DNA from: Deferribacterales bacterium Deferri_01
Lineage (GTDB): Bacteria > Chrysiogenota > Deferribacteres > Deferribacterales > Geovibrionaceae
Reading direction: 5' to 3'
NCBI GenBank assembly: GCA_001603805.1
Contig: LUZY01000003.1
Location: forward strand, 62,001 to 126,000
Length of the DNA: 64,000 bases
Made by a program: the position numbers and the translations under genes. Below are positions 51,774-57,514 of the stretch, one piece after another. Within the stretch, counting starts at the first letter, position 1. Each line of letters begins with the position of its first letter. The notes below the pieces were generated by a model. The model was given only the letters and a program-made list of their open reading frames with translations. It was not told the DNA's origin and searched no databases.

Positions 51774-51805
51774 TCTCTTCCCTTAACTTAAAGGGACTGA
51801 ATAAT

Positions 51806-51879
51806 CGGGGAATAGCGCAGTTTGGTAGCGTACCTGTCTTGGGCACAGGGGGTCGCAGGTTCAAATCCTGTTTCCCCGA
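51806..51879 (+). tRNA. tRNA-Pro (anticodon TGG)
   Basis: Full cloverleaf. Acceptor arm CGGGGAA (51806-51812) pairs with TTCCCCG (51872-51878), discriminator A at 51879; D arm GCGCAGTTTGGTAGCGT; anticodon stem CCTGT/ACAGG with loop CTTGGGC giving TGG; T arm GCAGG-TTCAAAT-CCTGT with one G-T pair. CCA is not encoded. An AT-rich island begins directly at its 3' end, a classic integration position, although I found no second copy of the 3' end downstream. Confidence 0.97.
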
Positions 51880-51880
51880 T

Positions 51881-52085
51881 TTATTTTCTTTTATATAACA
51901 ATTGCTTAGTAAACTGATTTTCTTTTTTGTGCAATATCACTTGGCAATCATTTCTAATATTCTGTGCTCCCGCATAGACTTCATCCAATTAAAGCAATTA
52001 TTCTTTTAGGATTTGCCCCCAGATCAATAGTCAAATCAGGGAAGCGTTTATAAGCATTCTTGAGTTGAATCTTTTTTCTTCTCAT
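51881..52085 (-). pseudogene. Remnant of a P-loop (AAA/ABC-type) ATPase gene
   Basis: Reading from the ATG at 52085, 34 codons give a start with RRKKIQLKNAYKRFPDLTID, then LGANPKRIIALIG, followed by TGA at 51983-51981. This is how defence-type and Rad50/AAA_21-like ATPases begin, just up to the Walker A loop, which is missing. In another frame the DNA continues open (DEVYAGAQNIRNDCQVIL) to TAA at 51883-51881, two bases from the tRNA. I read it as the truncated, frameshifted relic of an ATPase that was once part of this island. Confidence 0.45.
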
Positions 52086-52193
52086 AAATCACCATATATA
52101 TTCAATTTATATGCTTAAGTATCATTTCTTTAATGTATTAAATTCTTATATAAACATATTGACAATAGTTCAGCAAGCTATAATAATACTTCA
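52086..52193. other. AT-rich spacer with promoter-like signal
   Basis: About 110 nt, very AT-rich. It contains TTGACA (52159-52164) with AATAAT (52182-52187) after 17 nt, which would start RNA near 52194. No reading frame can be supported. Confidence 0.4.
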
Positions 52194-52345
52194 ACTTTCT
52201 TAGAGAAAGAACGGTTGCCCTTTTAGTTATGGCTTATGCTATAATAAAAGTAGAGTAATATGCATCAGCGTATTGTTCAAATGATAACTTACTTTTACAA
52301 TGGGTTTCAACCGTGTAAAGCTCAGGTTTCCTGAGCTTTATGTTT
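52194..52345 (+). ncRNA. Candidate non-coding RNA upstream of the reverse transcriptase
   Basis: The stretch is free of convincing frames and rich in hairpins. CTTTCT-TAG-AGAAAG (52195-52209) comes first. Next is TTTACA paired with TGTAAA enclosing GG and CC (about 52293-52320). Last is a perfect 11-bp hairpin TAAAGCTCAGG-TTT-CCTGAGCTTTA (52316-52340); these last two compete for TAAAG. Two promoter candidates exist: TTGACA/AATAAT at 52159/52182 and an extended -10 TGCTATAAT at 52237-52245. Many defence reverse transcriptases are preceded by a template or scaffold RNA, hence this call. The boundaries are guesses. Confidence 0.35.
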
Positions 52346-52527
52346 AATTAGAGAAGATTTCAGGTTCAGCAGTGCGCATTTTGTTAACTGAAGAATCAAC
52401 ACCAAGCTTTTTGATATAAATGTATAGTCTTTTTATATGATAACTCAAAACTAAGTTCATAAGATTAGCATTAGCCACTTAAATTATTCAAAGAATGTGA
52501 GTTAAGAAAGGGCATTTTGGTTGAAAT

Positions 52528-54030
52528 ATGGATCTTGAAAAAAAACTACACAATATAATTGAAGATGAGTGCAATAAACTCATTAAAAGATTTCAAAACT
52601 ATCATAATAAATTACATGCTGATCATGAAAGAAACAAAAAAAGAATTACCTTTCCACCTAAAAAGCAAATAAAAAAACCTGATTATTGGGAAAGGGATAA
52701 AAAATTTAATCCTTTTTATGTAAAGAGACGAATAAAAGCGATAACACGTTCAATTGTAAAGAAAATAACTAGTTCAACATACAAACCATTTCCTCCCTGT
52801 ATCAAAGAAATCCCAAAAATAGGCGGAGGAACAAGAAAAATAGCAGTATATCAGATACCAGATGCAAGTGTTTCTAAGTTGTTTTATAGGCTTTTATTAT
52901 CAAAAAACAAACATAGATTTAGTTCCTTTTCGTATGCCTATAGAGACGATAGGAATGTTCATTTTGCAATACAAGATATTTTTCTGGATATATATAAAGA
53001 ACCAAGAACGTTTGTTGCTGAGTTTGATTTTTCAGATTTTTTTGGTTCTATTTCGCATAATTATCTATTTGATCAATTTGAACGTAATGGTTTTGCTATC
53101 AATGATGTTGAAAAAAGTATAATTAAATCATTCCTCTCTGAAGGAGATAAAGGCATTCCTCAAGGAACAAGTATATCTTTATTCCTTGCTAATCTTGCTT
53201 GTTGGGAATTAGATAAAAATCTTGAAAGAGAAGGTTTGAGATTTGCACGATATGCAGATGATACTATAATTTGGAGTAAAGATTATGGGCAGATATGTTT
53301 AGCTTATAAAATAGTGAATGATTTCTCTGAAAAAGTTGGTGTTAAAATAAATCTGAAAAAATCCGATGGAATAAGTTTGTTATTGTTAAAGGGGAGCCCT
53401 GTTGAATTAAATAACTTTAAAGAATCTATTGATTTTCTAGGTTATTCAATCTCACCAAACTGTATCTCTATAAGAAGTAAAGCAATACAAAAAATGAAAC
53501 GGCAAATATCATATTTGCTCTATAGAAATTTAATTCAACCATTAAACAAAGATGAACTGAGAGCAGTAACGATTCCTGCAAATAATAATGATGAACATTT
53601 TTTAACAGCTATTATGCAGATACGTAGATATATGTATGGAGGAATGAAAGAGATTCAATTGATTCGATATATTAATGGACAAAGCAAAAGAATCTATTTC
53701 AAAGGAGTAATGAGCTTTTATCCCCTTGTTTCAAATATAGAACAGTTACAAAAACTTGATGGTTGGTTAATTGCAACTATATATCGTTCTCTATCATTAC
53801 GATCTAAACTTTTAGAAAAATGGAATTATGATAGAAGTTATGAATTTCCATTTAATTGTCCTCAGTCTGATTTAGTAAGAGAGTGTAAATCAAAAAGAAT
53901 ATACAAAAAAAACTTGCTCACTATTCCAAGCTTTACTCTTATTCAAAAAGCCTTAGAGAAGGGCGTCAAAGAAAGAGGTCTCGTGAGCGTAATGAATCCA
54001 AAATCAAATCAGTATGATTATCAAGAATGA
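52528..54030 (+). CDS. Stand-alone reverse transcriptase, UG/DRT-like (probable defence gene)
   Basis: 500 residues. Basic N-terminal 90, then RT motifs: GGGTRKIAVYQIPD (about 99-112), FSSFSYAYR, motif A VAEFDFSDFF with D167, GIPQGTSIS (209-217), and motif C RYADD with catalytic D244 and D245. A C-terminal 170-residue helical, basic region has no known endonuclease or maturase domain. It is not a group II intron protein (no X/En parts, no intron), lacks the retron VTG motif and the DGR SQ motif. The composition is far more AT-rich than the flanks. It lies about 180 nt after a hairpin-rich region. I think it belongs to the unknown-group or defence-associated RTs; the exact class is not decided. 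Confidence 0.85.
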   Translation: MDLEKKLHNIIEDECNKLIKRFQNYHNKLHADHERNKKRITFPPKKQIKKPDYWERDKKFNPFYVKRRIKAITRSIVKKITSSTYKPFPPCIKEIPKIGGGTRKIAVYQIPDASVSKLFYRLLLSKNKHRFSSFSYAYRDDRNVHFAIQDIFLDIYKEPRTFVAEFDFSDFFGSISHNYLFDQFERNGFAINDVEKSIIKSFLSEGDKGIPQGTSISLFLANLACWELDKNLEREGLRFARYADDTIIWSKDYGQICLAYKIVNDFSEKVGVKINLKKSDGISLLLLKGSPVELNNFKESIDFLGYSISPNCISIRSKAIQKMKRQISYLLYRNLIQPLNKDELRAVTIPANNNDEHFLTAIMQIRRYMYGGMKEIQLIRYINGQSKRIYFKGVMSFYPLVSNIEQLQKLDGWLIATIYRSLSLRSKLLEKWNYDRSYEFPFNCPQSDLVRECKSKRIYKKNLLTIPSFTLIQKALEKGVKERGLVSVMNPKSNQYDYQE

Positions 54031-54044
54031 TTATTTGACACTCA

Positions 54045-54720
54045 TTGTATTGTATGGTTATAGATATAAGCAGAACTGTTTACCATTATCAGCTAGATAC
54101 AGAAAAAGACAAGCCAGTAATAGCTGTACTACTTGAATTCAGTGAACGCTATCCCCGCTATGGATTTGGTAAACTTTTTCAGATTATCCGCCGGCACGGC
54201 TTTAAATGGAATCATAAGCGTGTTCACAGGGCTTAACCTGAGGCTCAATATGCGCCGTAAATGCAAGAGAGGCTTCCTAATCGTAATCCTGCTCCTATTG
54301 CCGTTCCTGAATCTATCAGTCAGCGCTGGAGTATAGATTTTATGAGCGGCAGTCTTTATTCCGATTGAAGATTTAGAACATTCAACGTAGTTGACGATTT
54401 TAACAGATAAGTTCCGGCTATTAAGATAGACCTTAGCTTACCAGCAGAGTGAATCATAAGGGTGTTTGACCGCATCGCACTTTGGCGTGGTTACCCGCTC
54501 AAGAACAGGATGGATAATGGTTCAGAATTTATATCACTGAAACTGGCTGACTGGGCAGAAGAGCATGACGTTGAGCTTGAATTCATTCAGCCAAGCAAAC
54601 CATTTCAAAACTCATACATTGAGAGGTTTAACAAGACATTTAGAAACGAATATAATAATGAAAGACCCACATGAATCATTAGGCAACTTGAAGCCTATGG
54701 AGCATGCTGCAAATATGTGA
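54045..54720 (+). pseudogene. Decayed IS3-family transposase (OrfB)
   Basis: Fragments of an IS3-type DDE transposase can be read across frames: RTVYHYQLDTEKDKPVI and GFKWNHKRVHR, then LRLNMRRKCKRG, SQRWSIDFMSG with the first Asp, RMDNGSEFISL with the second Asp, SYIERFNKTFRNEY with the Glu, and finally HESLGNLKPMEHAANM. In-frame stops occur at 54366, 54408 and 54450, and frameshifts near 54235, 54290 and 54667. The OrfA part and the left end are missing, so the element is truncated next to the reverse transcriptase gene. Inactive. Confidence 0.88.
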
Positions 54721-54845: not shown

Positions 54846-55667
54846 TTACTTTTTGCCCAGATCATCAAGCCATTTTTTGAATCTGTTAAATTCTTTTTCC
54901 GCAAACTGTTTAAAGAAAGTGGACATGAACTGTGCAGCAATATCCGTTGCCTGCCCTACAAGGGTAGGGTAAATCGCCAGAGCGAGGGTGTTGTTTATCT
55001 CAAAAACCACTCTGTCATATGAGATTTTAAGGTCAACTTTTTTGATGCCGCCGCATATAGTTCTTACATCAACTGTTTTCATATCAAGCTGGGCACGGTA
55101 TATGGTGAGTGTTGATGCTTTGTCGTATGAGCGTATCAGCGTAAGAAACTGAAGATTGTTCTCTTTTGTGGAGGAGTTCAGGGCATCTCCGCCGGAATTT
55201 TTCAGTGCCTGAATAAATGCATTTTTTATATCTTCCGGTGCTTTGGCATCAATGCAGGTTGAAATCAGATCAGCATTTACAGAAAGAGTGAAGTCATTTT
55301 CGGAAAACTTCTTGCTTTCCCTAAGCTGAAAGTTGAAGAGAAGGGGATAGCGGGCAAAAAACTGTATCCACACTTCGCTGTCGTGTGTGAAGTCCTGCCC
55401 TGCGGTGACAAGCTGGTTTGTTCCCTGCTGCTGTACCACCTGCATGATAAAGCGAAGCTTTGATTCATCAGACGCAGAAACCTCATTAGGGTTTTTGTTG
55501 TAGTCAAACTGAAGCTGGGCGTCATGGGTGGCTGTTGCAAAGTCTGTGTCTGATTTTTCCCATGATTCGACGCCGGTTTTTTCTCTTGCTTTTACCTGAG
55601 GTTGTTTTGCCCTTGCTTCGCTGAATGCTGCACTAAGTGTTTTTTCCTGTTCCGCAGTGAGTTTCAT
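54846..55667 (-). CDS. Hypothetical protein, partner of a putative papain-fold protein
   Basis: 273 residues, no signal peptide or membrane helix. I do not recognise the family. The N-terminal 60 are charged and helical (MKLTAEQEKTLSAAFSEARA), the middle alternates strands and helices (FTLSVNADLISTCIDAKAPE, LQFLTLIRSYDKASTLTIYR), and the C-terminus is a long amphipathic helix ending FNRFKKWLDDLGKK. It lies 11 nt after the gene at 56239-55679, so both are one operon. A substrate, inhibitor or immunity role toward that partner is possible but unproven. Confidence 0.75.
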   Translation of the reverse strand: MKLTAEQEKTLSAAFSEARAKQPQVKAREKTGVESWEKSDTDFATATHDAQLQFDYNKNPNEVSASDESKLRFIMQVVQQQGTNQLVTAGQDFTHDSEVWIQFFARYPLLFNFQLRESKKFSENDFTLSVNADLISTCIDAKAPEDIKNAFIQALKNSGGDALNSSTKENNLQFLTLIRSYDKASTLTIYRAQLDMKTVDVRTICGGIKKVDLKISYDRVVFEINNTLALAIYPTLVGQATDIAAQFMSTFFKQFAEKEFNRFKKWLDDLGKK

Positions 55668-55678
55668 CTCTGTCCTCC

Positions 55679-56239
55679 TTAGACACGCTTTATGAAGGCT
55701 GCAACAGTGCCGACCGCCATGAAGTCATGATTATTGACTCCATCGAATCTGACGGCGACCTCGTCACCTGTATCCGCTTTAATGAGCTGCGCTGTGACTG
55801 CCGTATCTGGGCTTATATAATCTTCCTCTATCAGTTTTGATGTAAGATAGTGGGTGTAGCCTTTCTGGCTTTTGAGAATAATTGTGGCGTGTCCGACACC
55901 GATGATTACTCCCTCATATTCATTAAGCAGATTGTTCGCCTGATCCAGAGTTGCCTGGGAATCATCAGCGGGTCTGAATACTGTCCATGTGAAGCCCTCC
56001 ATGGGTGTCTTATCGAGAAAAATTTCAATTTCTTCTGTAAGTACACCCATTTCATCAAGGGATTTGCCTGTTGATTCCTGCTGAAATGTGTTCCACATGG
56101 TTTCAAATTCATCTGATGGTGCAAACCTGCTTTTATCCAGATTACGCAGTATCATATGAAGGGAACAAGGGAAGCATGAGTTTTGAAAAATCATATTCTT
56201 AACACTTATGCCGTATTGCGGGAAATCCTGCCATGCCAT
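55679..56239 (-). CDS. Putative papain-fold (C39-like) cysteine peptidase
   Basis: 186 residues from the ATG at 56239, which has AGAGGTG 6 nt upstream; a longer reading to 56368 adds an unlikely hydrophobic tail coded in AT-rich DNA. The segment NSCFPCSLHMILRNL looks like the catalytic-Cys helix, and GVGHATIILKSQKGYTHYL like the catalytic-His strand of C39-like peptidases. The third residue could be the Asp or Asn in a later strand. No signal peptide, so it is cytosolic or exported by another route. It is first in an operon with an unknown 273-residue protein. The enzyme call is tentative. Confidence 0.65.
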   Translation of the reverse strand: MAWQDFPQYGISVKNMIFQNSCFPCSLHMILRNLDKSRFAPSDEFETMWNTFQQESTGKSLDEMGVLTEEIEIFLDKTPMEGFTWTVFRPADDSQATLDQANNLLNEYEGVIIGVGHATIILKSQKGYTHYLTSKLIEEDYISPDTAVTAQLIKADTGDEVAVRFDGVNNHDFMAVGTVAAFIKRV

Positions 56240-56431
56240 GAGACACCTCTTTAAATTCCGATAATGAAAAATAAAGGGTATACGGAAGGAAAGCAATATA
56301 ATGTATATGATATGAAAAATAACTATACAATATGGAAATAAAATCATAAATTGTGATGGATATATCAATATTTGGAGTATCAGAACAGTGCTGTATGCCG
56401 TCAGGATAAGAGTTTATTGTTTTTTTAGGTT
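56240..56431. other. AT-rich spacer, no gene seen
   Basis: 192 nt between two leftward genes. It should hold the promoter of the 56239 operon; several AT-rich -10-like sequences are present and I cannot choose one. No terminator for the lpxR-like gene is obvious. Confidence 0.4.
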
Positions 56432-57439
56432 TTAGAACTGGATAGAGATGCTCAGTGCGCCGAAATCCTGTTTATCGGAAGACTGCCTCTTAAATTCTCT
56501 GGTACGAAGCACTTTGGTGTATGCGAGGCGTATATTTTTCTTTGAGAGAACAACACCCATTTGGAGATCCCCGACAAATTCTTCCTTGTCCACACTTCTG
56601 CTTTCGCTAAAGGTGTTTCCGTCGAGGAATATATTTCGTATTACATATCTTCCTTCCAGACCGGCGAACAGATACCAGCTGAAGTTTTTCTGCTGTATGA
56701 AAAACCCTGAACCGGGCAAACTGGGCTGGATTCTGGGAGGACCGTAGTCAACGGGGAGTCCTTTTCCGTAGCGGAGTGTTGCGCCTGTGTTTGCGTAAGT
56801 GAATACATTTCCCAGCGCAAATCCGGCGTGGGGGGTGATGTCGTATTCAAATCCAAGGAACGATCTTGAGACGTAACTTCTCCAGCTTCTTTGGTAAGTG
56901 AGAACAAATCCCGGTTCATTATCAAGCTGTGTGTCCCAACCTTGTGGAATATCAAGACCTCTGACCTTGTGGACAAATTTCTGTGTTTGTTCTGCCATTG
57001 AAGCAGGACCGACAATGCCCAATGTAAATTCTATCTGGTCAAGCTGCTTGCCGTTTTCGGCGATTAATCCCACAGAGCCGTAGAGCCAGCCTGCGTAGGG
57101 ATGATCATCGGTGGAGGGGTTTTTAAGCTCGGTTTCTTTAGGTGTGTACATATTCTGCCCGAAAGCATAGTTTGTCCGCACAGAGGCATTGTCAGGGAAA
57201 AAAGGGAGCAGCCGGGCGGCTTTGTATGCCCATTCCGGTCTTTTATCGGCTGCTGTGGTCCATGAGGCACGAACTCCGTTGGTGTAGTAACGGTCGCTGT
57301 AGAACATGTCATTTTCTATAACGAAGCTCAATGTTCCGTTGGGTCCGTCGTCTGATGCGAATATTTTCAGCGGAATAAACGTAAGAAGCAGCGAGGTCAG
57401 ACAAACTGCATTAATGAGATTTCTTACTGTTTTTTCCAT
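56432..57439 (-). CDS. LpxR-like outer-membrane lipid A 3'-O-deacylase
   Basis: 335 residues with a signal peptide (AVCLTSLLLTFIPLKIFA) and an alternating outer-membrane barrel ending in a C-terminal Phe (LSISIQF). The first strand FVIENDMFYSDRYYTNGVRASW carries the Asn-Asp and Thr residues of the LpxR active site, and HPYAGWLYGSVG carries the His. LpxR removes the 3'-acyloxyacyl chain of lipid A in a calcium-dependent manner. The ATG at 57439 has AGGTG upstream; a GTG nine bases earlier is the alternative. Monocistronic. Confidence 0.88.
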   Translation of the reverse strand: MEKTVRNLINAVCLTSLLLTFIPLKIFASDDGPNGTLSFVIENDMFYSDRYYTNGVRASWTTAADKRPEWAYKAARLLPFFPDNASVRTNYAFGQNMYTPKETELKNPSTDDHPYAGWLYGSVGLIAENGKQLDQIEFTLGIVGPASMAEQTQKFVHKVRGLDIPQGWDTQLDNEPGFVLTYQRSWRSYVSRSFLGFEYDITPHAGFALGNVFTYANTGATLRYGKGLPVDYGPPRIQPSLPGSGFFIQQKNFSWYLFAGLEGRYVIRNIFLDGNTFSESRSVDKEEFVGDLQMGVVLSKKNIRLAYTKVLRTREFKRQSSDKQDFGALSISIQF

Positions 57440-57514
57440 ACTTTGCACCTGATAACCGGATAGTAAAAGTAACTATAACCTTTCGTCTGTCCGGTTATCA
57501 AGGAGTAAATATTT

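Follow-up and report, generated by a model that had tools for sequence, protein, structure and literature searches.

DRT9 (UG28) consists of a reverse transcriptase (RT) and a required noncoding RNA (ncRNA), which is encoded just upstream and acts as both scaffold and template (PMC12483538, PMC12489045). In the studied systems poly-dA accumulates on infection and the infection aborts, with the way in which poly-dA kills being left open (PMC12483538). Ten systems were tested in E. coli in that study, and just two are named there as giving defence against multiple phages.

The locus described here is located in a window of 64,000 nucleotides (the whole stretch of DNA that was analysed) from Deferribacterales bacterium Deferri_01. 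Its closest described counterparts are SenDRT9 of Salmonella enterica and UG28 of E. coli (PDB 9ioa, 9iob, 9nlv, 9nlx, 9vku, and 9vma). Its RT equals theirs in length and architecture (~58% identity), and its ncRNA likewise lies upstream on the same strand, with a U4 template loop, a closing stem, SL1, SL5 with the kissing-loop C and G, and a terminator hairpin. The C-terminal YxY priming tail is present, and no SLATT gene adjoins the locus. Unlike these systems, it has a shorter ncRNA that lacks one internal hairpin, a distance of 185 nt from ncRNA to RT (about 13 nt in theirs), lost SL4-contact residues R205/K208, and a host with no detectable ExoI. A tRNA-Pro and IS3 debris flank the locus, as opposed to tmRNA and an integrase in the known systems.

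DRT9 loci of a Desulfobacteraceae MAG (L002), Domibacillus tundrae (L003), a Neisseriales MAG (L004), and a Hymenobacter plasmid (L006) also have U4-bearing upstream ncRNAs and RTs that are 50–58% identical to the one examined, but their ncRNA–RT spacing is short and their hosts and neighbours differ. DRT2 (UG2) resembles the locus in having a class 2 UG RT with an upstream ncRNA, but is distant in sequence (72 bits on the PADLOC Drt2 profile). DRT2 makes protein-encoding repeats, which are not joined to a protein as products (PMC12489045).

The reverse transcriptase

The RT gene (52528–54030, plus strand) is an intact ORF with an ATG start, encoding 500 amino acids. The catalytic residues listed in the preliminary description were all found as stated, that is, D167, GIPQGTSIS at positions 209–217, and YADD at 242–245 (Y242, A243, D244, and D245). 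Pfam assigns RVT_1 alone (E 8.5e-22, residues 95–308), with no maturase or endonuclease domain, and no other protein of the 2.85 Mb genome matched RVT_1.

The same description read the enzyme as a UG/DRT-like defence RT and proposed a search against DRT RT profiles. This search, using PADLOC, sharpened the reading to DRT9/UG28, with the Drt9 profile matching residues 4–496 at E 9e-210 and 696 bits and the runner-up family reaching 108 bits. As controls on the Drt9 profile, a group II intron RT scored 159 bits, a phage RT 91 bits, and the BPP-1 DGR RT 78 bits, in agreement with the earlier view that the enzyme is neither a retron nor a DGR RT. In the PDB, the DRT9 chain 9ioa matched residues 1–499 (phmmer, E 1.6e-196). 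The RT is 58% identical to that of E. coli DRT9 and 50–58% identical to six further DRT9 RTs, which come from the Desulfobacteraceae MAG, the Hymenobacter plasmid, Domibacillus, and the Neisseriales MAG, the last two each accompanied by another genome of the same class. An AlphaFold model built on a shallow alignment of four rows was of low confidence (pLDDT 58, TM 0.66). Used in Foldseek, this low-confidence model had chains of the six DRT9 cryo-EM entries as its best PDB matches (E 1e-39 to 2.5e-42), followed by a group II RT at 1e-11.

Small RT trees of 16 rows did not resolve the deep nodes, also with regard to the DGR comparison, and the placement therefore rests on profiles and identity. 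By these, the RT is assigned to DRT9 (UG28). Two other kinds of RT were considered and rejected. As a group II intron RT, the protein reached 134.6 bits on the NCBIfam group II model, where the cut-off is 300, and lacks a maturase domain. As a retron RT, it scored 71 bits on St85 (cut-off 235) and 26 bits on Ec67 (cut-off 450).

The residues conserved in the RT alignment are Y25, K97, R103, R139, D167, D244, D245, Y496, and Y498. In detail, Y25 of the N-terminal helical extension and the lock residues K98/R104/R140 have their counterparts here in Y25, K97, R103, and R139. Y496 and Y498 (...MNPKSNQYDYQE; codons at 54013–54021, plus strand), the tyrosines predicted to act in protein priming, align with Y496/Y498 of E. 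coli DRT9, which are implicated in priming and defence (PMC12483538, PMC12489045). On the other hand, R205 and K208, which in E. coli DRT9 hold the flipped U67 of SL4 (PMC12489045), are replaced by S204 and D207, and both positions vary among the other homologues too.

The AT-rich composition of the gene, already pointed out from its contrast with the neighbours, amounts to 29.4% GC against 44.2% for the remaining window. Since the DRT9 genes of five relatives are AT-rich as well (29–33% GC), low GC is as much a trait of DRT9 in general as a sign that the gene came recently.

The upstream ncRNA and the spacer

The RT had been regarded as an orphan and a single-gene system; this does not hold, because the upstream stretch taken as non-coding contains the required ncRNA gene, at about 52193–52342 (plus strand). 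A covariance model built on seven other DRT9 ncRNAs, with the window excluded, was run over 104 kb on both strands and gave a single hit, at 52193–52342 of the window (49.8 bits, E 3.7e-10). The window ncRNA keeps 26 of the 29 consensus pairs. In the model alignment, window included, 88% of the cells are paired and 24/29 pairs show changes on both sides (8–15 in slid controls); this alignment was fitted to the structure and favours it, with slid and shuffled controls being far lower. The fold of 52185–52350 has an MFE z-score of -5.56 relative to shuffles. RNAalifold on five ncRNAs aligned with MAFFT misaligned the window, and the covariance model was used instead. Rfam did not return a DRT9 ncRNA; its weak sub-threshold matches to the rimP leader and isrN were disregarded. 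Judged by model, covariation, and fold, the RNA is a member of the DRT9 ncRNA family.

The RNA is composed of the SL1 hairpin (52195–52209), a closing stem (52211–52220 with 52302–52314), one internal hairpin, SL5, the template loop, and a terminator hairpin. The U4 template (ACTTACUUUUAC) is located at 52293–52296 (plus strand), inside the conserved loop motif ACTTACTTTTAC (52287–52298), and corresponds to U124–U127 of PMC12489045. It is invariant in all eight aligned ncRNAs, and the 14-mer TAACTTACTTTTAC at 52285–52298 is the same in the window and in E. coli DRT9. With the E. coli numbering fixed by U4 as 124–127, the alignment places the equivalent of C94 in the SL5 loop at 52266 and that of its kissing-loop partner G114 at 52283 (both plus strand); C94–G114 is an inter-subunit pair in E. 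coli DRT9 (PMC12489045). The terminator-like hairpin, equivalent to SL6, is positioned at 52317–52339 (plus strand), where AAAGCTCAGG and CCTGAGCTTT form 10 perfect pairs around a TTT loop as part of the computed fold.

The length of the ncRNA is ~150 nt, as compared with 188 nt in E. coli, and its one internal hairpin stands against two, SL3 and SL4. The ncRNAs of the Neisseriales MAG, the Hymenobacter plasmid, and the L026 locus likewise look shortened. Because of this and of the variation of R205/K208 among homologues, the internal hairpins (SL3/SL4) and the R205/K208 contacts are a variable trait within the DRT9 family. Scrambling of SL3 had a mild effect (PMC12483538). Across the Domibacillus, Neisseriales, Hymenobacter, and L026 loci, the internal hairpins differ, with U4, the closing stem, and SL5 being retained. 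The compact ncRNA of the window helps to define the minimal RNA needed.

A candidate sigma-70-like promoter of the ncRNA is found at 52159–52187 on the plus strand (TTGACA, 17 nt, AATAAT; 11/12 matches in a consensus scan); promoter-like sites in the region are about as many as expected by chance, and the support for this one is its position. The spacer between ncRNA and RT (52343–52527, plus strand) is 185 nt, the longest among the DRT9 loci examined, since the others have roughly 10–30 nt. The consensus scan gave no promoter-like site within it, so that expression of the RT presupposes either transcription continuing from the promoter of the ncRNA or a weak promoter that the scan did not recognise. 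The spacer was also considered as a repeat element and rejected, having no other copy in its own genome.

Proposed function and the ExoI question

Every catalytic, priming, and U4-template feature tested is conserved, and all the family-level sequence tests made fit a full DRT9. The locus is almost certainly a two-component DRT9 (UG28) antiphage system, formed by the ncRNA at ~52193–52342 and the RT at 52528–54030. By analogy with the studied systems, protein-primed, U-templated poly-dA would most likely be made on phage infection, with cell death following. In detail, the RT and ncRNA would form a higher-order RNP, in which the C-terminal tyrosines Y496/Y498 would prime DNA synthesis. The U4 loop would then be copied repeatedly into kilobase poly-dA joined to the RT. 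On phage infection the poly-dA would build up and the cell would die or stop growing, by which the population may be protected.

There is a small chance that the locus is a DRT9 homologue that has become non-functional, with RT and ncRNA intact and their co-expression lost through the 185-nt spacer and the surrounding IS decay. The long spacer, the lost hairpin, the absence of an integrase from the island, and the IS3 debris directly downstream would agree with such a loss. On the contrary, the RT frame is intact and none of the catalytic and priming residues tested is missing. The ncRNA keeps its template, its kissing-loop bases, and 26/29 consensus pairs, and shows compensatory changes, consistent with functional selection. 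It is very improbable that the RT is DRT9-derived with another product or role (e.g., some other repeat DNA, in the manner of DRT2 or DRT10). Related class 2 DRTs do differ in product (PMC12632851, PMC12483538), but U4 and the 12 nt around it are the same as in the E. coli DRT9, which makes poly-dA, and the two RTs are 58% identical over their full length. A group II intron, retron, or DGR RT can practically be dismissed. The shared RVT_1 domain and the 134.6 bits on the NCBIfam group II model would speak for it, but this score is far under the cut-off of 300, and against it stand 696 bits for Drt9, a DRT9 ncRNA upstream, and Foldseek matches to DRT9.

In the two-component DRT9 system, the silencing of the enzyme deserves attention. 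In E. coli, poly-dA is degraded by ExoI (sbcB), and transformation of an sbcB deletion mutant with SenDRT9 did not succeed (PMC12483538). A search with PF08411, the C-terminal family of ExoI, gave no match in the genome that carries the window, which is estimated to be 100% complete, nor in four of the five other DRT9 genomes searched (G051, G052, G053, and G479), some of these being MAGs or drafts; the E. coli control was positive. Another exonuclease may serve in these hosts, and the result suggests no more than that ExoI, the published silencer of DRT9, is not general. More tentatively, and with the odds rather against it, a nuclease other than ExoI might silence DRT9 both here and in most hosts outside the E. 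coli-like bacteria, so that the trigger of poly-dA build-up would differ from the T5 gp58–ExoI competition; in the present locus, the shortened ncRNA and the loss of SL4 contacts could be part of a variant assembly. No treatment of DRT9 in ExoI-less hosts was found in the literature searched, the coverage of which was incomplete. How such hosts tolerate an enzyme that constitutively makes poly-dA in vitro is a testable question.

Genomic setting and distribution

A tRNA-Pro(tgg) gene (51805–51880, plus strand; ARAGORN and Rfam) precedes the locus and is the probable integration site of a DRT9-bearing island. Two genomes of the same genus differ at this place. In the first (G022), the sequence is colinear through the tRNA and resumes at lpxR after ~0.9 kb of unrelated DNA, the respective interval in the window being ~4.5 kb. 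In the second (G021), the same tRNA-Pro is adjoined by genes for a phage integrase and an IS3-type transposase. As these intervals differ and only one of the 51 genomes of the phylum is positive for DRT9, the tRNA-Pro is considered a site of variable integration, with DRT9 as an accessory locus. The variable interval in the relatives indicates that the locus probably came by horizontal transfer at this site.

Directly downstream of the RT, a decayed IS3-family transposase fragment (54045–54690, plus strand) with several stops and frame changes shows 71% DNA identity to the intact rve transposase gene of G021. As for an attachment site, a search for direct repeats of the 3′ end of tRNA-Pro gave just a copy with three mismatches inside lpxR (56463–56479), not clearly beyond chance, and this candidate was rejected. 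Among the neighbours, PADLOC matched no further defence genes, except for an HTH repressor that fits generic regulators.

The minus strand at 51900–52100 contains what looks like a disrupted small gene (MRRKKIQLKNAYKRFPDLTIDLGANPKRIIALIG, followed by a shift of frame), which may be left over from the island. Two adjacent ORFs on the minus strand (54846–55667 and 55679–56368) have no significant Pfam or PADLOC match; they lie within the variable interval between tRNA-Pro and lpxR and are missing from the matching interval of G022. The far border of the interval is the gene of the LpxR outer membrane protein (56432–57448, minus strand; Pfam E 2e-116).

DRT9 occurs in none of the 50 other genomes of the phylum, and the locus places a full DRT9 system, including its ncRNA, in this lineage. 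The preliminary suggestion that the locus may be undescribed can hold for this host lineage only (1/51 genomes of the phylum). DRT9 itself has already been published with structures and mechanism (PMC12483538, PMC12489045).

In E. coli, too, a relative is rare, with two full copies and a truncated one among 5,426 genomes. The E. coli relative adjoins tmRNA, together with an integrase gene. The truncated copy, in strain VE-T9 (NZ_AP027963.1, 1049869–1050514), retains the first third only of the DRT9 region, at 99.7% identity. No DRT9 was found in phage records. The plasmid search gave one DRT9, that of Hymenobacter, and one distant SLATT-linked relative in Thioclava. The latter (L007, 4001–6131) is a DRT9-like RT with 31% identity and an overlapping SLATT_5 gene. 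It ends in YELQ without the second priming tyrosine, with no match to the DRT9 ncRNA model, and possibly belongs to UG28b or another subtype.
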